Shown one piece after another: positions 37,069 to 50,413 of a DNA stretch of 64,000 bases. This DNA is from Streptomyces monashensis (lineage in GTDB: Bacteria > Actinomycetota > Actinomycetes > Streptomycetales > Streptomycetaceae). The DNA lies in NCBI RefSeq assembly GCF_001866665.1, contig NZ_MLYO01000012.1, forward strand, positions 1 through 64,000, written 5' to 3'. Each line of letters begins with the position of its first letter. Within the stretch, counting starts at the first letter, position 1. Under the pieces are notes generated by a model. The model made no database searches. It was not told the origin of the DNA and saw only the letters and a program-made list of their open reading frames with translations. Position numbers and translations under genes: made by a program.

Positions 37069-38601
37069 TCACGAGCCCTGCGGCTGCCGTGCCGCCGCCT
37101 CGGACAGGCGCGGGCCCGTCGGCAGGAACGTCGACCACGCCATGGGGATGGGGGCGGGGGTCACCTTCTCGTAGCCGAGCCGGATCTGGGCGATCTTGGC
37201 CTCGCTCAGCTCGTCCTTGCGCTGCTGGGCGGAGGTGCCGATGCCCTTGTCGTCGGTGGCGCTGTCACTGTTGGACTGAAGGGCGTAGCGCAGGCCCGTG
37301 TCGGTGACCAGGAAGACGCCGCCGACCGAGGTCTCCGTGCCCTGGAACTGGCGGTAGAGCTGCCCCGAGCCCGGCGTGGCGTACGCGCTGGAGGAGCCGG
37401 TGGGCAGTTGGGCGGGGAAGTCGGTACCCGCCCAGGTCGACAGGGTGGTGCTGCCGTCGGTGCCGACGGAGTTCAGGACGTTGCAGACCGTGTTGCGACC
37501 GCTGGTGGTGTGCGAGCCGTCGTTCACCATGCGCGGCTTGTACGTCGGCCAGTTCTGCTGCTCCGAGAACGTCGTGCTGTCGGCGACCGAGGCGGGGGCG
37601 ACCTGCTGTGCCTCGCCGGCCTGGCCGGTGCCGCCGAGGGCACCGCTGTTGAGGAGCAGCGTGGCCGTGAACTCGGAGATACCGGCCACCTTCCCCTGGA
37701 GTACGACGTAGTAGCGCATCATCTGGCCGTCGTACGCCTTCACGACCTCGCCGACCTTGTCGTACTCGCCCAACAGGCTGGAGGCGTGCGCCTTCTGGCC
37801 CGGCGTGCCCTGGATGGACGGGATCGCGATCGGGGAGCCCTTGTGCAGGGTGTCGAGCCAGTCCTGCGAGACGCGCTGCGGGGCGCGGCCCTGGGTGTCG
37901 AGGGCCCTGAGCAGCTCCCGGTTGTCCGCGCCCCCCGACTTCTCGATCTCGTACGCCGTGCCCCCGGCGTCCACGACGTACTGGGTCTTGCCGTCCGGGC
38001 CGACGACGTACATCAGGTCGCCACCGGTGAGCTTGGCGGACCCTTCCGTCTTGGGCCATTCCTTCTCCGCGAGGACGAACGCCGCCTTCTGGATGGCCCG
38101 GCCGCCGTCGCCGGGGCGCTCGCAGACTGCCCAGCGCTTGGCGGCCGACGCCTCGTCCGCCGAGGGCAGGCGGTCGGGGGCGTAGGGGATGCCGATGGTC
38201 GCGCCGTGCGGGGGCGTGCCGCTGTCGAGGATCTTCTCGTCGACGGTGATGACGCTGCCGCTGTTCGGGTCCAGCAGGAGCTTGGCCGACGCCATGTTGA
38301 GGACCGGGTGGAGCTGGGCCTGCTTGCCCGTCTTCAGCACGACGTACCGGGTGGTCGACTCGCTGGCGACGATGACGTGCGCCTCCGGTGTGTCCCAGCC
38401 CTTGGGCGCGGTCGGGCTGAACATGCCGATGCCCCCGAACACCGCGAGGACGACGGCGCCGACGACGAGACCGGGCACCAGTGCGCCCAGCGGCTTGGGC
38501 GCACCCTCCTCGGAGCCGGTGGGAGAAGGCTGGAGAAATGACGCGAGCGTACGGCGCTTCGCGAAGGTGTAGGCGTTGAGTTCGTCCCGCCGTGATGCCA
38601 T
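37069..38601 (-). CDS. eccB: Type VII secretion protein EccB
   Basis: EccB is an ESX core component with a short cytoplasmic N-terminus, one TM helix (about 41-62) and a large extracytoplasmic repeat domain. This 510-residue protein shows the EccB opening RRDELNAYTFAKRRTLASFL, the RYVVLKTGKQAQLHPVLNMA region, and two cysteines (WAVCERP, NTVCNVL) in the external part likely to form a disulfide. It is followed closely by mycosin and is divergent from eccE. Length agrees with the family. Confidence 0.95.
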   Translation of the reverse strand: MASRRDELNAYTFAKRRTLASFLQPSPTGSEEGAPKPLGALVPGLVVGAVVLAVFGGIGMFSPTAPKGWDTPEAHVIVASESTTRYVVLKTGKQAQLHPVLNMASAKLLLDPNSGSVITVDEKILDSGTPPHGATIGIPYAPDRLPSADEASAAKRWAVCERPGDGGRAIQKAAFVLAEKEWPKTEGSAKLTGGDLMYVVGPDGKTQYVVDAGGTAYEIEKSGGADNRELLRALDTQGRAPQRVSQDWLDTLHKGSPIAIPSIQGTPGQKAHASSLLGEYDKVGEVVKAYDGQMMRYYVVLQGKVAGISEFTATLLLNSGALGGTGQAGEAQQVAPASVADSTTFSEQQNWPTYKPRMVNDGSHTTSGRNTVCNVLNSVGTDGSTTLSTWAGTDFPAQLPTGSSSAYATPGSGQLYRQFQGTETSVGGVFLVTDTGLRYALQSNSDSATDDKGIGTSAQQRKDELSEAKIAQIRLGYEKVTPAPIPMAWSTFLPTGPRLSEAAARQPQGS

Positions 38602-38806
38602 CTGTGTCCGCTCTCTCCCCGTTGCGGAGCCGTGGGGAACCTGTGAAGATCCGTCCCCCGCCTCGGTTGCCTCTGGTGCCTCAACTGTCAGACCCGCCCC
38701 CTACTATGCCTGTTGCGCGGACGTGCTGGTGGCACGGGTAGGGTGCACACGGCTTGCAGGGACCGGAGCGCAAGGGTTTCCGGGAGAGTTCGGGGGTTTT
38801 GGACTG

Positions 38807-40168
38807 ATGGCTTCCGCAACGCGGACGCGATCGCGATCGCAATCGAGGTCCCGCTCGGGCGGCACCCGCCGGGCGGACGGCCGTGACGCGTCTTCCTCCC
38901 AGCCGCCCGCTCAGCAGGCACGCAGGCCGCACCAGGGCACCTTCGCACCGCATCCGGAGTCCCGCTCGGGGCGCGGCGGTTCGTTCGCGCTCCAGCGGCT
39001 GGTGCTGCTGGAGATCGCGTGCGCGCTCGTGGTGTGCAGCTGGCTCGTGAGCACCGTCGCGTTGATGGCCGCCGCCCCGTTCGCCGTGCTGCTCGTGGTG
39101 CTCGCCGTCGTACGGCGGCGGGGGCGCTCGCTGCCGGAATGGCTCAGCACCCTGCTGGCCCTGCGCGCCCGCACGCGGCGCGCGGCGAGCACACCACTGC
39201 CGCCAGGCACCGACTCCGGTCTCGCGCCCGCCGTGGAGTGCGACCCGAGCCTGCGCACGTACAGCTACAGCCGCGGCGACGACCGCGACAAGCGGCCCAT
39301 CGGCATGGTGGGCGACGGCGGCTTCGTGACCGCCGTGCTCCAGGTGGAGTCCGACGCGGACGCGCTGCGCGCCGAGCGCAGCCGCAGGCCGCTGCCGGTC
39401 TCGCTGGTCCGGGACGTCCTCGAAGTGGACGGCATCCAGCTGGAGTCGGCGCAGATCGTCGTGCACACCCAGCCCGCGCCCGCGCTGCACCTGCCCCAGC
39501 AGTCGGTCGTGGTCAGCAACTACGCGCCCTTGCAGGCCGAGGCCGGCGCCCCCGCGGTGCGCATCACGTGGATCGCGCTCAAGCTCGACCCCGAGCTGTG
39601 CCCGGAGGCGGTGGCCGCGCGTGGCGGTGGGCTGCTGGGAGCGCAGAAGTGTCTGACCCGCTCCGCCGAGCATCTGGCGAGTCGCCTGACGGGGGCGGGC
39701 TTCCGGGCCAACGTGCTCACCGAGGAGGAGCTGACGGCGGCCATCGCCACCTCCGCGTGCGCGAACCCGATGGTGACGGCGCAGGCCGGGCGGGGCGAGG
39801 CGCCACAGCGCCGTACCGAGGAGTCCAGCCGCAGCTGGCGCTGCGACAACCGCCGGCACACGACGTACTGGGTGCGCCGCTGGCCCCAACTGGGCGGCTC
39901 CGCCGGCTCGCTGGCGCACCTCGTGGCGAAGCTGACCGAGGTGCCCGCGCTCGCTACGACCTTCAGCCTGACGCTCGCCAAGGGAGCTCAGCAGGATGTG
40001 TCCATCACCGGCCATCTGCGGATCACCGGCCGCAGCAACCAGGAACTGACCGACGCGCGGCGCGATCTCGAGCAGGCGGCGCGGCGGGAGCGGACCGGAC
40101 TCGCGCGCCTGGACCGTGAACAGCTCCCCGGCGTTCTCGCCACCCTGCCGCTCGGAGGTGCGCGCTGA
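38807..40168 (+). CDS. eccE: Type VII secretion protein EccE
   Basis: The 453-residue protein has an Arg/Ser-rich cytoplasmic N-terminus, two hydrophobic helices (about 62-88 and 89-103), and a soluble C-terminal domain of EccE type (LAPAVECDPSLRTYSYS, RPIGMVGDGGFVTAVLQVE, TLAKGAQQDVSITGHLRITG). EccE sits at the periphery of the ESX membrane complex. I chose the ATG at 38807; the frame extends upstream without a sensible start. It ends in a TGATG junction with the next gene. The 205-bp gap to eccB must hold divergent promoters, which I could not define. Confidence 0.88.
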   Translation: MASATRTRSRSQSRSRSGGTRRADGRDASSSQPPAQQARRPHQGTFAPHPESRSGRGGSFALQRLVLLEIACALVVCSWLVSTVALMAAAPFAVLLVVLAVVRRRGRSLPEWLSTLLALRARTRRAASTPLPPGTDSGLAPAVECDPSLRTYSYSRGDDRDKRPIGMVGDGGFVTAVLQVESDADALRAERSRRPLPVSLVRDVLEVDGIQLESAQIVVHTQPAPALHLPQQSVVVSNYAPLQAEAGAPAVRITWIALKLDPELCPEAVAARGGGLLGAQKCLTRSAEHLASRLTGAGFRANVLTEEELTAAIATSACANPMVTAQAGRGEAPQRRTEESSRSWRCDNRRHTTYWVRRWPQLGGSAGSLAHLVAKLTEVPALATTFSLTLAKGAQQDVSITGHLRITGRSNQELTDARRDLEQAARRERTGLARLDREQLPGVLATLPLGGAR

Positions 40169-41309: not shown

Positions 41310-44300
41310 GTGAACAGCGATCGGGACGGGATCCGCGGGGGCTGGGACACACCCGACGACGACCAGACCGACGCGGAGTCCGCCATCGAGATGACGGGCG
41401 AGTTCACCATCGACTACGCGCCGCCCGCCTGGTACACGCAGAACGCGTCGGGTTCGTCCGCTGCTCCGGCGGCGCCGGGGCCGCAGCAGCCCGTCGGCAC
41501 CCCGCCGCAGGGCACTCCGTACGCGCCCCCGCAGGGCACCCCGTACGCTCCGCCGCCTCCGCCGCCGCCCGCGCAGGGCGGTTACGGCTTCCCGCCGCCG
41601 GTGCAGCCCGCGCCGCCGGTCGGTCCTCCTGTCGTGCCTCCGGTGCCGATGCCTCAGCTGCCGCAGGGGTTCGAGCCGCAGCAGCAGCCGTCCGCTGCGC
41701 ACGACTTCGAGTTGCAGCAGCCGTCGGCCGCTCCGCAGGTGCAGCCCGAGGCGCCCGCGCCGGAGACGGACAACGGGGACCTGGAGAGCGGGGCCACCAT
41801 GCGGTTCTCCGCCGTGGCCCTGAAGCGCGAGATGGCGGAGATCGCCGAGCGCGCGGCGGCCGTCAAGAAGGAGGCCGAGGCCGCCGGCACCGAATCGGCC
41901 GACGCCGAGAGCACGGGTACCGCCGGTGCGGAGGGTGCCGAGGGTGCGCCCGAGGCCGTCGTGGCGTCGGGTGACTCCGGCGAGGGCGCCGTGGGTCATG
42001 TGGCCGAGGAGCTCCGGGAGTCGCAGGAGTCCGCCGAGTCCGGGGGCGATGCCGCCGGTCAGGGGGACGCCGTTGCCGAGAGCGCCGTATCGGAGGAGGC
42101 TTCCACGGACGTGGACGCGGACGCCGACGCAGACGCGGAGGGTACCGACGCGGATGAGCGCGAGGCTGCGACCAGCACCGGTCTTCCGGCCGCGGACGCG
42201 GACGGTGCCGAGGGTGGCGAGGTGGCCGACGCGTCTCAGGCGGAGGGTTCCGCCGTCGTCGCCGACTCCCCCGCCGCTCGCGCCGACGCGCCCCAGGACG
42301 CCGTGCCGCCCGCCGCCGTCCCGCAGGACGCCGTACCGCAGGACGCCCCGCCGCAGCCTCCCGTCGCTCCCCCGGCCCCTCAGGACGCGCAGCCCGGTTG
42401 GACGCCGCCGCCCGCGCCGCAGAGCGGGGTGCCGCCGCTGCCGCCCTCCTACCAGCCCGCTGCCCCCGCCCCGGCGGGCCACTGGTCCGGCCAGCCCGGT
42501 CAGCCGGCACCGCCGCAGCAGCCCGTACCGCAGCAGCCCGGTCCCCTGCCCGGTCAGCAGCCGCCGTTCCAGCCGCAGGCTCCGCAGCCCGCGCCCGCCG
42601 CCTGGAACCAGGCCAACCAGCCCAACCAGCCGCAGCAGCCCGGTCAGCCCGTCGCGCCGGGACCCCAGCCGCAACCCCTGCCGCAGCCCCAGCCTCATCC
42701 GCAGCAGGCGGGGGCCGCCGGACCCGGTGGTTACGGCTTCCCTCCGGCCGACGTCAACTCCCCGGCGCAGCCGGGCGGTTACGGCTTCCCGCAGCCGCCG
42801 CAGGCCCCCCAGCCGCAGCAACAGCAGCCGCAGAGCCCCACCGCGCCGGCCCCGCCCGGCGGTTACGGCTTCCCGCAGCCGCAGGCAGACGCCCCGCAGG
42901 CGCCCGTCGACCCGCGCACCGGTGCCGCGTGGCCGCAGCCCATTCAGCACGACCAGCGGCAGATGACCAACCCCGGTGCCGCGCCGCTCGGTTACACCGC
43001 CGCCGTGGAGCTGTCCTCGGACCGGCTGCTCAACAACAAGAAGCAGAAGGCGAAGAGCGGGCGGCCCGCCGCGGCGTCGAGTCGCTTCAAGCTCGGCGGC
43101 AAGAAGGAGGAGGCCGAGCGGCAGCGCAAGCTGGAGCTGATCCGCACGCCGGTGCTGTCCTGCTACCGGATCGCGGTCATCAGCCTCAAGGGCGGCGTCG
43201 GCAAGACGACCACGACGACCGCGCTCGGCTCCACCCTCGCCACCGAGCGGCAGGACAAGATCCTCGCGATCGACGCCAACCCGGACGCCGGTACGCTCGG
43301 CCGCCGCGTGCGCCGGGAGACCGGCGCCACCATCCGCGACCTCGTCCAGGCGATCCCGTACCTGAACTCGTACATGGACATCCGGCGGTTCACGTCGCAG
43401 GCGCCGTCCGGGCTCGAGATCATCGCCAACGACGTCGACCCGGCCGTCTCGACCACGTTCAACGACGAGGACTACCGGCGCGCGATCGAGGTGCTCGGCA
43501 ACCAGTACCCGATCATCCTGACGGACTCCGGTACCGGCCTGCTCTACAGCGCCATGCGCGGTGTGCTCGACCTCGCCGACCAGCTCATCATCATCTCGAC
43601 GCCGTCCGTGGACGGTGCGAGCAGCGCCAGTACGACGCTGGACTGGCTGTCCGCGCACGGGTACGCGGACCTGGTCTCCCGGTCCCTCACGGTCATCTCC
43701 GGGGTCCGCGAGACCGGCAAGATGATCAAGGTCGAGGACATCGTGGCGCACTTCGAGACGCGCACGCGCGGTGTCGTGGTCGTGCCCTTCGACGAGCATC
43801 TGGCCGCCGGTGCCGAGGTCGACCTCGACATGATGCGGCCGCGGACGCGCGAGGCGTACTTCAACCTCGCCGCGCTGATCGCCGAGGACTTCACCCGCCA
43901 CCAGCAGGCACACGGCCTGTGGACCAGCGACGGCAACCCGCCGCCGGTCGCCGCCCCGCCCATGCCGGGCTACGCGATGCCGGGACAGCCCGTGCCCGGG
44001 CAGCCGATGCCGGGACAGCCGATGCCCGGACAGCCCGTGCCCGGTCAGCCTCAGCCGTACCCGCAGGTCCCGGGACAGCCGTACCCGCAGGCTCCCGGGC
44101 AGCCGTACCCGCCCCAGCAGGGACAGCCCGGACAGCCCGTGCCGGGGCAGCCCATGCCCGGACAGCCGTATCCGCAGGCTCCCGCCGGTGCCCCCGGTCA
44201 GCCGTTCCCGCAGCAGCCCGGACAGCCGGGGCAGCCGTACCCGCAGGCCCCCGTGCAGACCCCCGGCCAGGGGCTGTACGGCCAGCCGCCGCAGCAGCCC

Positions 44301-44375
44301 GGCCAGGCGTACGGCTACCCCCAGGCTCCCCAGGCTCCCCAGCCCCCGCAGGAGCAGCAGCCGCCGCAGCAGTAG
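41310..44375 (+). CDS. EspI-like proline-rich MinD/ParA ATPase
   Basis: The 1021-residue product starts at a GTG after AGGAGGAACT. The order is: an acidic Pro/Gln-rich N-terminal half with four GGYGFP motifs (90-95, 473-478, 489-494, 517-522), an Ala/Glu/Asp-rich stretch (about 175-330), a MinD/ParA-type ATPase with deviant Walker A KGGVGKTT (627-634) plus [12 protein letters not shown], and a C-terminal ~130 residues of PGQP-type repeats. It resembles mycobacterial EspI (a Pro-rich MinD-like ESX regulator), so a role in ESX activity or positioning is inferred. The tail repeats may vary in copy number. Confidence 0.85.
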
Positions 44376-44440: not shown

Positions 44441-45388
44441 TCACTCCTGCGCCGCCACGATCTCCCGGCACCGCTTCACGTCCGCCGCCATCTGGTCCAG
44501 CAGGGCCTCCAGCGAGTCGAACTTCGCCTGGCCGCGCACGTAGGCGAGGAAGTCGACGGCGACGTGCAGGCCGTACAGGTCGAGGCCGACGCGGTCGATG
44601 GCGTACGCCTCCACCGTCCGCTCGGTGCCGTCGAACTGCGGGTTCGTGCCGACCGAGATCGCGGCCGGCATGGCCTCGCCGTCGACGTGCAGATAGCCGG
44701 CGTACACGCCGTCGGCCGGGATGGCGGTGTGCGGGAGGGTCTCGACGTTGGCGGTCGGGAAGCCCAGTTCGCGGCCGCGCTGGGCGCCACGCACGACCAC
44801 GCCCTCCACGCGGTGCGGGCGGCCCAGGATCTCGCGGGCGCCCTCGACATCGCCCTCGGCGACCAGGCAGCGGGTCAGGGTCGAGGAGAACGGCTTGCCG
44901 CCGCCCGCCTCACCGGTGACGTACAGGTCGACGACCTCGACCTCGAAGTCGTAGGTCTTGCCCTGCTCGGCGAGGAACTCGACGTTGCCCGCGGCCTTGT
45001 GGCCGAAGCGGAAGTTGGGGCCCTCCACGACCGCCCTGGCGTGCAACTTGTCCACCAGGACCTTCACGACGAAGTCGGCGGGCGAGAGCTTCGAGAACTC
45101 GGTGGTGAAGGGGAGGACGAGCACCGCGTCCACGCCCAGCTCCGCCATCAGCTCGGCACGGCGGTGGTGCGGGGCGAGCAGCGGCGGGTGGCTGCCGGGG
45201 CGGACGACCTCGCTGGGGTGCGGGTCGAAGGTGACCACGACGGCCGGGACGCCCAGCTCGCGGGCGCGGTCCACGGCATGCCTGATGATCAGCTGGTGGC
45301 CGCGGTGGACGCCGTCGTAGGAACCGATGGTGACGACGCTGCGCCCCCAGTCCTGGGGGATGTCCTCCAAGCCACGCCAGCGCTGCAC
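44441..45388 (-). CDS. ribF: Bifunctional riboflavin kinase/FAD synthetase
   Basis: RibF converts riboflavin to FMN and then FAD. The 315-residue protein has the N-terminal nucleotidyltransferase domain (TIGSYDGVHRGHQ at about 20-32, VEGPNFRFGHKAAGN) and the C-terminal kinase domain (GRELGFPTANV, DGVYAGYL, GTNPQFDGTERTVEAY). The start is a GTG at 45388. It converges on the EspI-like gene and lies 141 bp downstream of a large NTPase gene. Identification is secure. Confidence 0.95.
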   Translation of the reverse strand: MQRWRGLEDIPQDWGRSVVTIGSYDGVHRGHQLIIRHAVDRARELGVPAVVVTFDPHPSEVVRPGSHPPLLAPHHRRAELMAELGVDAVLVLPFTTEFSKLSPADFVVKVLVDKLHARAVVEGPNFRFGHKAAGNVEFLAEQGKTYDFEVEVVDLYVTGEAGGGKPFSSTLTRCLVAEGDVEGAREILGRPHRVEGVVVRGAQRGRELGFPTANVETLPHTAIPADGVYAGYLHVDGEAMPAAISVGTNPQFDGTERTVEAYAIDRVGLDLYGLHVAVDFLAYVRGQAKFDSLEALLDQMAADVKRCREIVAAQE

Positions 45389-45529
45389 TGTGACCGCTCC
45401 TCGAACCCGTGTCCGTATGGACTCTCAAGACTTGCGCAGGTCTAAGGGTGCCATGCCGGGTGCCCCTGACCCGCATCGGTGTCGGGGCTGTGACCGGGCG
45501 CACGTTCACCGCCATGACGTCGGTTCTGC

Positions 45530-48500
45530 TCAGGCCGGTACCCGCACGCCGGCCAGGCTCTCCAGCGTGCGGCGCGTGCTCGGGCCCACCACGGCGGCCC
45601 AGTCGTCCGGGGTCGCGCTCAGCCAGCGGGCCATGAGCAGGGCGAAGCCGGGCACGTGCCGGCCCAGGTCGACCAGGCCGCGGTCGAAGCGGGTGGCGCC
45701 TTCGGGTGTACGGATCAGGAGCAGGCCGGTGCGGTGGACGAGCCCGCGCATCTCCTCCTCGCGGCGGTCGCCGTGCGCGGCCGCCGCGTGCAGGACCGCG
45801 GCCAGGACGGACGGCTCCTGTTCGCCGGTCAGCAGGATCTCCAGCAGCTCGCGGCGCAGCGGGCGGCAGGCCGGGGTGCCCGGGGCGGCGAGGACGGCGG
45901 CGAGTGCCGCGCGCAGCGGTTCGGGGCCGCCGTCCAGCAGGCCTGTGACGAGGGGCAGGAGGACGGCGCGCGCGGTGGGCCCCTGCTGCTCGAATCGCCG
46001 GTCGACGTGGTGGGCGAGCTGTCCGGCCAGGTGTCCCGCGCCCTCCGGGCGGCGCCGTACGGCGTCCCGGGCGAGGCCGGCGACGGCGCGGGCGAGGGCC
46101 GGGGTGGCGGCGTCGGCGAGGGCGGTGAGGAGGCGCGCGGCGTCGGGCGGGTCCGAGGCGCTCAGCCGGGTGCGGAAGGCTTCCAGGACCGGTTCGGGAT
46201 GGGTGGCGAGGGCCGGGGCCAGGGCGCCGGGCGGGACGTGCGGGTCGCCGTCGGCGAAGTGCCGCAGGGCGGCGGGCAGATACGAGTCCCGGGTGTGCGG
46301 GTCGTGGACCAGCAGGGCGAGCGCGCCGCCGTGCAGGAAACGGTCGGCGGGGCGGGCGAGCAGGGCGAGGGCGGCGAGCCGCAGCAGCGCGCGGTCGGCC
46401 TCCGCGCGCGCGTGCGGGGCCGTACGCAGCCCGAACGCGACCGCCGCCGCCCGGCGGACGGCGCGCTCGTCGTGCGCCCAGCGGTCGACGGCCCGGCAGA
46501 GGGCCGCGGGCTCGTCCTCGGCGAGCGTGCCGAGCAGTTCGTCGGCGCGACGGTGGGGGCTCGCCGCCAGCAGTTCGGTGAGGTCGTCCAGCGCGCCGTG
46601 CCGGTGGGTGTGCAGCAGCGCCTGGGCGGCCGTGGCGACGGTGGCGTGCGGCGTCGCGGGCAGCGGCCGCTCGTCGGCGAACCAGCGGATCAGCTCCGGC
46701 TGTACGACGGCGGGGGCGGCGGCGAGCTGCCGGGCCACGGCGTCGAGGTAGCGCCCGCCGGGCTCCGGGGGCACCTGGTCGGCCAGCACGAGCCGGCGCA
46801 GCAGATCGAGGCGCTCGGCGTCCGGGAGGGGCAGCCCGGTCCAGAAGGCGGGCCCGAACTCGGCCGGCACGGCCCGCCGCGCCCGGCGCCAGGCCACGAT
46901 CCGCTCGGCGAGCAGCCGCAGCACCTCGGTGTACGGCGTCGCGTCCGGGACCTGGTGCAGGGTATGGGCGAGCAGCCGGGCGGCCCACCAGGATCCGGGG
47001 TCCCGGTCGAGCGCGTCTGTCAAGTCCCTGAGCCGGGCCGCGAGTTGGCGTTGTCCGCACTGCCGGGCGAGCAGCAGCAGGGCCTGCACGACCGGGCCGA
47101 CGCGGTGGTGCGGCACCGGCACGGGCGCGCTCTCGCCCGCGGCGCGGGGGCGGTGGACGAGGGCGTGCAGGGCCTCGTCCAGGTCGAGGTGCATGCCCTG
47201 GATCCAGTCGGCCACTTCGCCGTGCGCGAAGCGGTAGCCCGTGCCGGCCGGGACGAGCAGGCCCTCGGCGAGCACGGCGGACGCCCAGCCGGTGCCACCG
47301 CCGAGCCGGGCCGGGGCGGGTCCCCACGGGAACACCGCCTCGAAGGACTCCCGGTCCAGCTCGCCCTGCCCGGGTCCGAGACTGCGCCGGGCGGCCTCGT
47401 GCACCTGCCCGGCGACGCGCGCGGCGAGCCGCCGTACGGCCGTACCGCGCGGGCTGCCGTTCGCGGCGGCGAGCCGGACCGCGATGCGCAGGCACATCAG
47501 GTCGAGGTGGGCGGCGAACACCTCGTGCCGGTCGACGGGCCCGGCGGCGGCAGGGGCGTCGGGGACGGCGGCGCGGATCTCGGCCAGCAGGCGCAGGACG
47601 AGCGGATGCCGGGCGTCCCGGCCGCCGAGCACCCCCTCGGGGACGCCGTACCGCGCACGGGCCCGGCGGGCCTCGTCCGACGTCAGCGCGGCGAGCCGGA
47701 CACAGGGCGGGAGCGGAGGACCGGGCGGACAGGGCGCATGGCCCGGGGCCGAGGTGGAGGTCTGAGGTGCGACCGCCGGAACCACCGGAGTCGACGGCAC
47801 GCGCTCGGCGGCCGGAGCCGCCGCGGCCAGCGGAGCCGCGGGGCCCGTCACCCGAGCCGTGGGGGCCGTCGGCGCCACGGGGTCCGCCGGCGCGTACAGC
47901 TGGTCCGGCGGGAATTGCGTACCCGCTCGCTCCCAGTACTCCTCCCGGCACGCCATCACCAGCCGTGCCCCGGTCTCGCGCAGCCACTCGGCGGTGCCGC
48001 GGATCCACGCGGGCTGCCGGTGGGCGAGGACAGGCGGCATCTCCTCGGGGCCGTCGACGAGAAGCAGCAGCGGGCGCCCGGCGCGGGCGGCGAGGCGGGC
48101 GAGGCGCTCGGGGGTGACGTCGCCGAGGCCGCCGCAGGGGGCACAGCGGGCGGCGACGATCCGGGCGGCCCGCTCCAGCGTGCGCCGGGCCGCGTCGGCC
48201 ACGGAGCCGTCGGCGTCCGCGAGGTCGGCGCCGCGCAGCCAGAGCGTGGGCGCGGGCCGATCGGTACGGGCCCGGCGCGCGGCGAGGGCCGCGAGTTCCG
48301 TCGTACGGCCGCTGCCCGCGGCGCCGACGAGCGCGAGCACGGCCCGGTCACCGTCCGCGAAGGCCGCCAACTCCCGTGCGACGCCGTAGCGTTCGACGGG
48401 TTCCGGGCCGTCGGTGAGGCGGGCGGGCGGGCCGTCCTGGCCGACCGAGGTGGCGGTCAGCTCCAGGACGCCGGCCAGGTTGAGGTCGGCGCCGTACGCG

Positions 48501-49231
48501 GGCACGGTCGCCGCGTTGCGGGCGAGCAGGTCACCGAGGGGGCCGTCGGCTGCGGGCCGCAGCGGCACCGCGAAGGCCGCGTCGCGCTGCCCGGTGTGCA
48601 GGGCCGTGCCGAGGACGCCGAGGACCGCGCCGGTGCGCGGGTCCAGCACCGGTCCCCCGGCCGCCCCGCGGCCGAGCCGCAGTGCGTCCCGGCCCGCGGT
48701 GCCGATGGCCAGCTCCAGTGCCTCCGGGACGGGGTGGCAGCGGTCCGTGGCGGTGTACGTCGCCTCGGTGGCGGCCAGCACCCGCGCCTCGCGCCAGCAG
48801 CCCGCCGGGAGCCGTACGTAGGTGCCGGCGTCGATCCGCTCCCGCACGGTCAGCGGCAGCGGGGCCGTCCCCAGCCCCTCCGTGCGCACCAGGGCCAGGT
48901 TCTGGGCGGGCAGCGGGGTGACGGCGGCGGCGTCGACCACGCACACGCGCTCGCCGACCTCCGGGCCGTCTCCGGTGTCGGCCGCGGCGCGCAGGACGAG
49001 CCGGGGCAGGCCGTCGACCGCCTCGTGGCTGGTGAGCAGGGTGCCGTCGTGATCGGCGAGGAAGCCGACCCCGCGGGGGCGGCCGGCCAGGTCGCGGATC
49101 TGGACCAGCCCGGGAACGTGGGAAGCGGGGGGAGGTGGCGCAGGTGTACGGCCGATGCCGTCCCCCGGCTCCCGGCGACCGTCCCCCGCCTCCCCGCGAC
49201 CGCTTCCGGTCCGCGGGCCCCGTCCCGCCAT
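45530..49231 (-). CDS. Trypsin-like (degenerate) plus NACHT/STAND-like ATPase
   Basis: The 1233-residue protein starts at the ATG after GGGGAGGT. Residues about 40-235 resemble a trypsin/HtrA fold (GVGFLADHDGTLLTSHEAVDG, then NLALVR, then GAAGGPVLDPRTGAVLG). The catalytic Ser site reads GAAGG (Ala191) and the Asp site reads Asn111, so proteolysis is doubtful. A P-loop NTPase follows with GAAGSGRT (303-310, Arg in place of the Walker Lys) and a Walker B LLLLVDGPEE (388-397), then CREEYW typical of NACHT/STAND proteins. The C-terminal ~600 residues are helical Ala/Leu/Arg-rich repeats of HEAT type. Such architecture suits a sensor or signalling switch. The actual role is unknown. Confidence 0.75.
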   Translation of the reverse strand: MAGRGPRTGSGRGEAGDGRREPGDGIGRTPAPPPPASHVPGLVQIRDLAGRPRGVGFLADHDGTLLTSHEAVDGLPRLVLRAAADTGDGPEVGERVCVVDAAAVTPLPAQNLALVRTEGLGTAPLPLTVRERIDAGTYVRLPAGCWREARVLAATEATYTATDRCHPVPEALELAIGTAGRDALRLGRGAAGGPVLDPRTGAVLGVLGTALHTGQRDAAFAVPLRPAADGPLGDLLARNAATVPAYGADLNLAGVLELTATSVGQDGPPARLTDGPEPVERYGVARELAAFADGDRAVLALVGAAGSGRTTELAALAARRARTDRPAPTLWLRGADLADADGSVADAARRTLERAARIVAARCAPCGGLGDVTPERLARLAARAGRPLLLLVDGPEEMPPVLAHRQPAWIRGTAEWLRETGARLVMACREEYWERAGTQFPPDQLYAPADPVAPTAPTARVTGPAAPLAAAAPAAERVPSTPVVPAVAPQTSTSAPGHAPCPPGPPLPPCVRLAALTSDEARRARARYGVPEGVLGGRDARHPLVLRLLAEIRAAVPDAPAAAGPVDRHEVFAAHLDLMCLRIAVRLAAANGSPRGTAVRRLAARVAGQVHEAARRSLGPGQGELDRESFEAVFPWGPAPARLGGGTGWASAVLAEGLLVPAGTGYRFAHGEVADWIQGMHLDLDEALHALVHRPRAAGESAPVPVPHHRVGPVVQALLLLARQCGQRQLAARLRDLTDALDRDPGSWWAARLLAHTLHQVPDATPYTEVLRLLAERIVAWRRARRAVPAEFGPAFWTGLPLPDAERLDLLRRLVLADQVPPEPGGRYLDAVARQLAAAPAVVQPELIRWFADERPLPATPHATVATAAQALLHTHRHGALDDLTELLAASPHRRADELLGTLAEDEPAALCRAVDRWAHDERAVRRAAAVAFGLRTAPHARAEADRALLRLAALALLARPADRFLHGGALALLVHDPHTRDSYLPAALRHFADGDPHVPPGALAPALATHPEPVLEAFRTRLSASDPPDAARLLTALADAATPALARAVAGLARDAVRRRPEGAGHLAGQLAHHVDRRFEQQGPTARAVLLPLVTGLLDGGPEPLRAALAAVLAAPGTPACRPLRRELLEILLTGEQEPSVLAAVLHAAAAHGDRREEEMRGLVHRTGLLLIRTPEGATRFDRGLVDLGRHVPGFALLMARWLSATPDDWAAVVGPSTRRTLESLAGVRVPA

Positions 49232-49414
49232 GGCCGTACCTCCCCGCGCGTGCCCCTGCCTGACCTCGACGGTAGGCGCGTGATGATCGGCGGGACAGAT
49301 CGCGTGGCGAACGCGCCCCCGTCCGCTCCCCCGGTTCACTCCGAGCGCCTGCCCGGACGGGTGAATAGACGGGTGCCGCTGGATAACCCTAGGGATGGGG
49401 GAACCGAGGGGGGA

Positions 49415-49463
49415 CCGTGGAGCGACGGCAGGAGCCCACCCCGTGGCGGCCGTCGCTCCACGG
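49415..49463 (-). terminator. Terminator hairpin downstream of truB
   Basis: A 14-bp inverted repeat (CCGTGGAGCGACGG / CCGTCGCTCCACGG) with a 21-nt loop lies 45-93 bp past the truB stop. It ends the translation-factor operon. The rest of 49232-49507 shows nothing else clear. Confidence 0.7.
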
Positions 49464-49507
49464 GCGAACGCGTGTCCATGCCACACGCGCGCCCCGGAAC
49501 CGCTGCC

Positions 49508-50413
49508 TCAGCCGAAGACGGCCAGGCTCTTGGCCTTGCCTTTCTGTTCCTCGACGAGCGCCAGGAAACGGCCCTCCCCGTCGAAGACGGCCACCGGGCC
49601 GCCGCCCGCGTACTCGTCGGGCATCTCCAGCCGTACGCCGTTCAGCAGCAGCCGGGCCCGCCTGGTGTCCACCTGCCAGCGCGGGAACGCGGCCGCGGCG
49701 GCCTCGGCGACGGGCATCACGGTCAGCTCCTGCTGGAGCTGGTCCAGGGTCCTGGCCGCGTCCAGCTTGTACGGCCCCACGCGCGTGCGGCGCAGCGCCG
49801 TGAGGTGGCCGCCGACGCCGAGGTCGGCGCCCAGGTCGCGGGCGAGGGCGCGGATGTACGTGCCGGAGGAGCAGACGACGGAGACGACCAGGTCGAGGAC
49901 GCGCGTGCCGTCCTCGGCGACCGCGTCCCGGATGTCGTACACGGTGAAGGACGAGACCGTCACCGGGCGGGCCGGGATCTCGAAGTCCTCGCCCTCGCGG
50001 GCCCGCTTGTACGACCGCACGCCGTCGATCTTGATGGCGCTGACCTTGGACGGCACCTGCATGATGGCGCCGGTCAGCTTGGCGATGCCGGCGTCGACGG
50101 CGTCCCGGGTCACCTTGGCGGTGTCGGTGGACGAGGTGATCTCGCCCTCGGCGTCGTCCGTGAGCGTGTTCTGGCCCAGGCGGATGGTGCCCAGGTACTC
50201 CTTCTCGGTCAGCGCGAGGTGTCCGAGGAGCTTGGTGGCCCGCTCGACGCCGAGGACCAGGACGCCGGTCGCCATCGGGTCGAGGGTGCCGGCGTGGCCG
50301 ACGCGGCGGGTCCGGGCGATCCCGCGCATCTTGGCGACCACGTCGTGCGAAGTGAAGCCCGACGGCTTGTCGACGATGACAAGGCCGTCGGGCGGGGTGG
50401 GCTTGCTGGTCAT
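49508..50413 (-). CDS. truB: tRNA pseudouridine(55) synthase
   Basis: TruB modifies U55 in the tRNA T-loop. The 301-residue protein shows DKPSGFTSHDVV (15-26) and the catalytic block GHAGTLDPMATG with Asp45, then the KEYLGTIRLG and GTYIRALARDLG regions. The ATG overlaps the rbfA TGA as ATGA. It is the last gene of the operon starting at rimP. Confidence 0.95.
   Translation of the reverse strand: MTSKPTPPDGLVIVDKPSGFTSHDVVAKMRGIARTRRVGHAGTLDPMATGVLVLGVERATKLLGHLALTEKEYLGTIRLGQNTLTDDAEGEITSSTDTAKVTRDAVDAGIAKLTGAIMQVPSKVSAIKIDGVRSYKRAREGEDFEIPARPVTVSSFTVYDIRDAVAEDGTRVLDLVVSVVCSSGTYIRALARDLGADLGVGGHLTALRRTRVGPYKLDAARTLDQLQQELTVMPVAEAAAAAFPRWQVDTRRARLLLNGVRLEMPDEYAGGGPVAVFDGEGRFLALVEEQKGKAKSLAVFG

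Follow-up and report, generated by a model that had tools for sequence, protein, structure and literature searches.

The 64,000-nucleotide stretch analyzed here, termed the window, comprises positions 1 to 64,000 of contig NZ_MLYO01000012.1 of Streptomyces monashensis (assembly GCF_001866665.1). The gene under study occupies positions 45530 to 49231 on the minus strand, to which all features of the gene described below also belong. Translation of this open reading frame gives a protein of 1233 residues in which a pseudo-trypsin is followed by a NACHT module and a helical superhelix and from which lysine is absent. The reading frame starts with an ATG at 49231 and stops at 45530; a GGGGAGG sequence at 49239 to 49245, judged by eye and separated from the ATG by a 7-base spacer, is the likely ribosome-binding site. 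The gene lies between truB (49508 to 50413) upstream and ribF (44441 to 45388) downstream, both on the minus strand and identified with Pfam, which mark a fixed place within the local order infB-rbfA-truB-gene-ribF. No Rfam RNA was found within 45300 to 49700.

The N-terminal trypsin-like domain spans residues 42 to 235 (48527 to 49108) and was matched at residues 54 to 206 by Pfam Trypsin_2, with a score of 36.1 bits against a cut-off of 27.6. The NACHT profile remained below its Pfam cut-off of 26.7, scoring 15.0 bits with the whole protein and 17.6 bits with residues 42 to 460. No NCBIfam match came close to a cut-off, and no match to PDB sequences was obtained with phmmer. AlphaFold2 models were generated for residues 40 to 700 and 560 to 1233, each from 52-row alignments; residues 1 to 40 are poorly conserved. 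The first model (mean predicted local distance difference test score [pLDDT], 84.8; predicted template modeling score, 0.81) contained, in order, a beta-rich domain, an alpha/beta NTPase, a helical domain and a winged helix, with pLDDT values of <50 chiefly at residues 455 to 499. The second model (pLDDT, 91.6) was nearly all helical. In Foldseek, the top matches of the first model were the MamO protease domain and Rv3671c Ser343Ala; HtrA-type trypsins matched model residues 1 to 199, while NLRP3, NLRC4 and NOD2 matched approximately model residues 205 to 661. VIA-align gave Z scores of approximately 17 to 18 for the trypsin part with HtrA-type proteases, including 17.7 with MamO (root mean square deviation [rmsd], 2.7 over 173 residues), and of 18.9 with NLRP3 (rmsd, 4.5 over 315 residues), 17.5 with NLRC4 and 16.8 with NOD2 for the NACHT part. 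As a predicted structure, a NACHT-type fold is present, consisting of a nucleotide-binding domain (NBD; residues 280 to 440, 47912 to 48394, boundaries set by us), helical domain 1 (HD1) and a winged-helix domain (WHD). The latter two domains occupy residues 511 to 700 (47132 to 47701) and are separated from the NBD by a variable, mostly low-confidence linker (residues 441 to 510, 47702 to 47911). The remaining residues, 701 to 1233 (45533 to 47131), form the predicted superhelix, which is HEAT/ARM-like by weak matches only. It resembled HEAT-repeat proteins such as the PP2A A subunit loosely (Z score of 10.2 and rmsd of 10.6 for the top row), and its structure matches were too weak to point to any family. 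An earlier note, made from the DNA sequence alone, had proposed a trypsin-like domain fused to a NACHT/STAND-like ATPase and HEAT-like repeats. Its reading frame and residue numbering (A191, N111 and R309) proved to be real, with the strand, which it had not given, being minus. The fused architecture was borne out by the Trypsin_2 score and the NLRP3, NLRC4 and NOD2 fold matches, and the comparison that it proposed with HtrA and trypsin came out positive for the modeled part of the trypsin region. The repeats held as an almost wholly helical superhelix, with only a weak HEAT/ARM likeness.

Relatives were sampled as follows. The Streptomyces set consisted of the best 80 of 213 stretches encoding a relative, 79 of them titled Streptomyces, and was aligned with the window (81 rows). 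A further 40 loci from 40 genomes of the window's family supplied 39 orthologues and one unrelated match (L133). Frames of at least 1050 residues made up an alignment of 112 rows.

The Walker A sequence, GAAGSGRT (residues 303 to 310, 48302 to 48325), departs from the GxxxxGK[ST] consensus in having an arginine, Arg309 (48305 to 48307), at the place of the lysine. Replacement of this lysine by arginine is a standard laboratory means of crippling a P-loop ATPase. Arg309 was present in 81/81 rows of the window and Streptomyces set, in all 37 covered family orthologues and in every one of the 112 rows. The Walker B sequence, LLLLVDGPEE (residues 388 to 397, 48041 to 48070), is intact, with D393 and E396 each found in 81/81 rows and E397 in 78/81. 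The sensor-1 arginine, R429, was conserved in 100 and the winged-helix histidine, H670, in 103 of the 112 rows. A Pfam NACHT search of 13 genomes, comprising the window's own genome and relatives, detected 78 matches in 12 of them, and the P-loops of 30 of these matches, drawn from the 12 genomes, were read. All 30 had lysine at the Walker A position; GxxxxGK[ST] was found in 29, and the thirtieth frame, which begins within the loop, likewise reads GKS. Two of the 30 score below the Pfam cut-off. These frames contained, as far as they were read, 3.2 to 37.6 lysines per 1000 residues (median, 12), and the Walker A lysine was kept even in those with 3 or 4 lysines in total (3 lysines in frames of 804 and 928 residues).

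The window protein contains 0 lysines and 139 arginines. This absence of lysine, missed by the earlier note, is a new observation of this analysis, and the protein falls within the definition of a lysine desert given in PMC10665810 (at least 150 lysine-free residues or half of the length). Over residues 41 to 1233, the 77 rows from the window and Streptomyces set had a median of 2 lysines (range, 0 to 7; 1.98 per 1000 residues), and the 36 rows comprising 35 distant members and the window, which was counted in both groups, had a median of 1 (range, 0 to 10; 1.4 per 1000). Eighteen of the 112 rows had no lysine at all, and the trypsin domain had 0.24 per 1000. A lysine at column 605 in 49/112 rows, and never at 309, speaks against a strict purge. 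The corresponding values per 1000 for neighboring genes were 46.5 for truB, 46.7 for rbfA, 35.1 for infB, 25.4 for ribF and 15.7 for a MinD-like gene. An own-genome baseline was derived from 864 kb (the window and 40 chosen, non-random stretches), in which 294 genes of at least 300 residues were called using a synonymous-codon score. Among the 21 called genes of at least 800 residues, only this gene was without lysine, the next having 5.5 per 1000; the next longest lysine-free stretch in the 864 kb was 662 residues, and three called genes of 300 to 500 residues likewise had none. The absence of lysine is extreme among these genes, not an island. A called gene on the same contig as the window (L221:16952-19189) encodes 746 residues with 1 lysine and 76 arginines.

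High G+C mutation pressure alone could have turned the P-loop lysine into arginine, together with the other lysines. Such pressure would fit the excess of arginine in the window protein and the 1.4 to 2.0 lysines per 1000 residues across the family, and lysine-poor proteins are described as common in Actinobacteria (PMC10665810). However, lysine is the rule in the P-loops of the 30 other NACHT/STAND frames, even in the lysine-poor ones, so base composition alone does not account for Arg309, and the family itself uses lysine at column 605 but never at 309. We consider this explanation very unlikely.

In the window protein the triad positions of the trypsin-like domain read H-N-A, consisting of His69 (49025 to 49027), Asn111 (48899 to 48901, within QNLALV) and Ala191 (48659 to 48661, within GAAGG), in place of a complete His-Asp-Ser. 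In the Streptomyces set His69 was present in all 77 rows with a letter, position 111 was D42 G20 N13 A2 (77 rows) and position 191 was A75 S3 C1 (79 rows). The 37 covered family orthologues had His69 in 34 cases, G29 D6 N2 at position 111 and serine in 18, alanine in 16 and other residues in 3 cases at position 191. Over the 112-row alignment, His69 was retained in 107 of the 109 rows with a letter, position 111 was G47 D45 N15 A2 (109 rows with a letter) and position 191 was alanine in 84 and serine in 20 of the 112 rows. The combined states were HDA in 41 rows, HGA in 27, HGS in 15, HNA in 12, HDS in 4 and HAA in 2, with 11 further rows each in a state of its own; 108 of the 112 rows had a letter at all three places. 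L118, a broken frame outside the 112 rows, is also H-D-S. Ser191 is retained alongside Gly111 in one clade of 14 rows, and Ala191 is present in the Streptomyces set and some distant genera, single states near 191 being uncertain in the distant rows due to a gapped alignment. A tree was built, with the trypsin columns excluded, from 75 of the 112 rows (the window, 35 distant rows, 4 Streptomyces rows with an unusual residue 191 and 35 random rows); the parsimony minimum on this tree was 18 changes for Asp, 6 for Ser and 2 for His. Position 111 varies within a constant LAL context, a pattern that is expected once catalysis no longer matters. Judged from these residues, the protease domain is very probably inactive in most members.

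The substitutions at 309, 191 and 111 had each been singled out in the earlier note for a conservation check, with differing outcomes: Arg309 was invariant, Ala191 was nearly fixed in the Streptomyces set (75/79) but mixed in other genera, and Asn111 was not conserved. Its reading of the protease part as inactive is very probably right for most members, but the triad loss is not a single conserved state and His69 is kept almost everywhere. The Walker B motif was intact, as that note had stated.

Ratios of nonsynonymous to synonymous substitution rates (dN/dS) were estimated from up to 18 Streptomyces rows as medians over 135 pairs with a dS of 0.1 to 1.2. The trypsin domain had a median of 0.28, the NBD one of 0.37, HD1-WHD one of 0.23 and the superhelix one of 0.35. 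Variability was greatest not in the superhelix but in the linker, which had a dN/dS of approximately 0.9 from 4 pairs only. The inactive trypsin domain is still under purifying selection.

The place of the gene was examined across the samples. Among the best 80 of 213 loci, 76 have truB upstream and 79 have ribF downstream, the exceptions being at contig ends; the corresponding numbers were 37 and 38 for 39 further loci, taken from the 42 remaining orthologue-bearing genomes of the family. Matches were obtained in 44 of 61 family genomes, that in G020 being partial and located elsewhere, so that an orthologue is present in 43/61. In 18/18 family genomes without the gene, truB adjoins ribF with 100 to 377 bp between the aligned ends. 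The window's own genome has a single match to the protein. Among 148 genomes of the class, 24 gave matches, of which the strong ones were all in the window's genus and the remaining ones were partial, covering only the trypsin part or the P-loop part (best E value, 2e-10). In our samples, the gene is confined to Streptomyces and kin, namely, the window's family, which the titled loci suggest to be Streptomycetaceae. The checks of restriction and synteny raised in the earlier note were thereby answered, ribF adjoining the gene nearly wherever the DNA could be read. Pfam analysis of eight neighboring frames identified TruB, RbfA, IF-2, RibF, a MinD/ParA-type ATPase and EccE, while two overlapping plus-strand frames had no Pfam match. 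No conflict-type neighbor was detected among these eight frames, and their Pfam matches included no second STAND protein, second peptidase or gasdermin. The statement that the gene has no obvious partner stands, though its place between truB and ribF is special.

The protein was compared with known systems. It resembles NLR/NACHT STAND ATPases (NLRP3, NLRC4, NOD2 and bacterial bNACHT) in the NBD-HD1-WHD fold, the helical C terminus after the switch, the Walker B motif with further acidic residues, the sensor-1 arginine and the winged-helix histidine. It differs from them in having arginine for the Walker A lysine in every row, a pseudo-trypsin N terminus, a helical superhelix in place of leucine-rich repeats and a score below the Pfam NACHT cut-off. 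LypA of Caulobacter, from the CARD-NLR gasdermin-type systems, is described as a trypsin-like domain with an ATPase domain lacking conserved Walker residues, in the order CARD, trypsin, ATPase, with the peptidase serine required for lysis and with LypB and LypC as partners (PMC13236601). Compared by description, both proteins join a trypsin-like domain to a STAND-type ATPase off the Walker consensus, whereas nearly all Streptomyces rows lack the nucleophile, such partners are not among the neighbors and a long superhelix is present. MamO, described as a pseudoprotease and magnetosome protein with a transporter domain and metal site (PMC4794232), likewise retained and reused an HtrA-type trypsin fold after loss of catalysis; its transporter domain, metal site and magnetosome role set it apart from the protein studied here.

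These likenesses bear on whether the gene encodes an anti-phage NLR that became fixed in the chromosome, with the dead protease serving as a bait for, or recruiter of, a separate active protease once infection is sensed. The NACHT fold and domain order are consistent with this explanation, as are the protease-STAND pairing in the CARD-NLR systems, exemplified by LypA (PMC13236601), and the effector-position trypsin domains of MoxR-vWA systems, which are reported to be nearly all inactive (PMC7159879). Against it are the finding of 0 PADLOC families at an E value of ≤1, the single match in the genome, one fixed place among translation genes and the location of greatest variability in the linker rather than in the superhelix. 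We regard an anti-phage NLR as unlikely, though with some weight, and we find a function in internal signaling or in the control of stress more plausible than a classic, mobile defense against phages. The link to conflict systems suggested in the earlier note fits the architecture but is not borne out by the fixed place, the neighbors or the PADLOC search.

The reading that we favor, with somewhat more doubt than confidence, is of an NLR-like protein, specific to its family and apparently inherited vertically, that acts by binding and not by proteolysis. The combination of an inactive protease, an arginine in the P-loop and almost no lysine argues that the protein is probably a binding scaffold rather than an enzyme, and a binding or scaffold role, as already proposed from the DNA sequence alone, is still judged likely. 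The RAD51 K133R protein is described as binding ATP but being defective in hydrolysis (PMC3155514). By analogy, the arginine-substituted P-loop would hold ATP and hydrolyze it slowly or not at all, and with ATP held and little hydrolysis the switch would rest in an ATP-bound state or be set by partner binding, not by a hydrolysis cycle. The superhelix would sense or dock a partner, and the pseudo-protease may present a binding groove to another protein, such as an active protease, an inhibitor or a peptide.

Several observations weigh against this binding reading. Walker A mutations in several NLRs are reported to abolish or reduce ATP binding (PMC7583971, where the passages on these mutants do not name the substitutions), and so Arg309 may mean that no nucleotide is bound; the same source considers a Walker A mutant of NLRP1b to be constitutively active. 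The assignment to NACHT is weak by sequence, as Pfam NACHT was matched at an E value of ≤0.01 in 3 of 33 members, compared to nSTAND_NTPase5 in 8 and AAA_16 in 7 of the same members. The need to fold may by itself explain the purifying selection on the trypsin domain, and in the 14-row HGS clade and the HDS rows some protease activity may, judging by the residues, persist. Two loci, L116 and L121, are without truB in the 2.1 to 2.6 kb read upstream, and at L148 the 1.7 kb read downstream contains no ribF. On a truB+ribF tree of 70 rows, at least 8 switches between presence and absence of the gene are required, of which 5 are forced by well-supported branches, and a frame change or stop was found in the matched part at 9/119 loci. 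This patchy presence and these broken copies indicate that the gene is dispensable. Lastly, literature searches on the family or the architecture gave no recognized description or biochemistry. The S. coelicolor orthologue is presumably SCO5710, a tag for which a literature search returned 0 papers.

In 500 shuffles of presence on the tree the mean was approximately 16 changes, and none was as low as 8. The simplest reading is one old origin at the truB-ribF place followed by several losses, with a count that cannot separate gain from loss, and inheritance is apparently vertical. A decaying relic, in which an old protease-NTPase lost its catalytic residues and then the gene itself, would account for the loss of the triad by differing routes, the patchy presence, the broken copies and the faster evolution of the gene product (54 to 78% identity to relatives in the best 80 of 213 stretches, versus approximately 85 to 96% for truB and ribF of the same loci). 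This explanation is quite improbable, as 110/119 loci are unbroken in the matched part, dN/dS is 0.23 to 0.37 in every folded part, Arg309 is invariant and the Walker B and winged-helix residues are conserved.

The binding reading can be extended to the scarcity of lysine. Pup is encoded in this genome, and lysine deserts are described as common in Pup-using Actinobacteria, accounting for 35.4% of the analyzed S. coelicolor proteins by the 50% definition (PMC10665810). The present protein resembles these deserts in being long and lysine-free in a Pup-encoding genome and goes beyond them in its 1233 lysine-free residues, in the conservation of near-absence over 112 rows and in the extension of this absence to Walker A. 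Having almost no lysine, it would be poorly accepted by the Pup ligase and hence long-lived, and the protein may escape pupylation. A long shot is a protein purged of modifiable lysines by selection throughout its length, down to the P-loop lysine that other NACHT proteins retain, and thereby turned into a durable scaffold that holds ATP and monitors or controls proteolysis; its target would, with the same slim likelihood, be the Pup-proteasome or a serine protease, the pseudo-trypsin imitating the groove or the inhibitor of that protease.

A whole bacterial family naturally carries a Walker A lysine-to-arginine change in an otherwise retained nucleotide pocket, so that the question of NLR-like function without ATP hydrolysis can be tested directly. 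As a conserved, almost lysine-free protein of approximately 1200 residues in a Pup-encoding genome, it is also a strong test case for protection from pupylation by lysine deserts.

Additional observations were made on the genome and the loci. Twenty matches to trypsin-like proteins in the window's own genome were screened as possible active counterparts, and four long ones were read. One of them, L104 (C153:30000-40000), is an 878-residue frame that combines a trypsin-like domain with a GLGGTGKS P-loop and has hydrophobic segments at the C terminus; by these features it is a possible candidate for an active counterpart. In L119 the gap between truB and the gene is unusually wide (approximately 1.8 kb), hinting at an extra insertion between them there and perhaps in L116 and L121. 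Matched pieces lay in two frames at L065, L067, L115, L116, L118, L119, L129 and L152, and at L138 a stop lies within the match, near its end, due in each case to sequencing error or decay. Within the window, an EccE-like gene and a Pro/Gln-rich MinD/ParA-type ATPase gene (38576 to 40168 and 41310 to 44375) lie on the opposite strand, converging on ribF, and are apparently part of a type VII secretion cluster. A link between the gene and these downstream secretion genes was considered and dropped, since, of the 18 genomes in which the gene is absent, 15 also have the MinD-like gene in the stretch examined.

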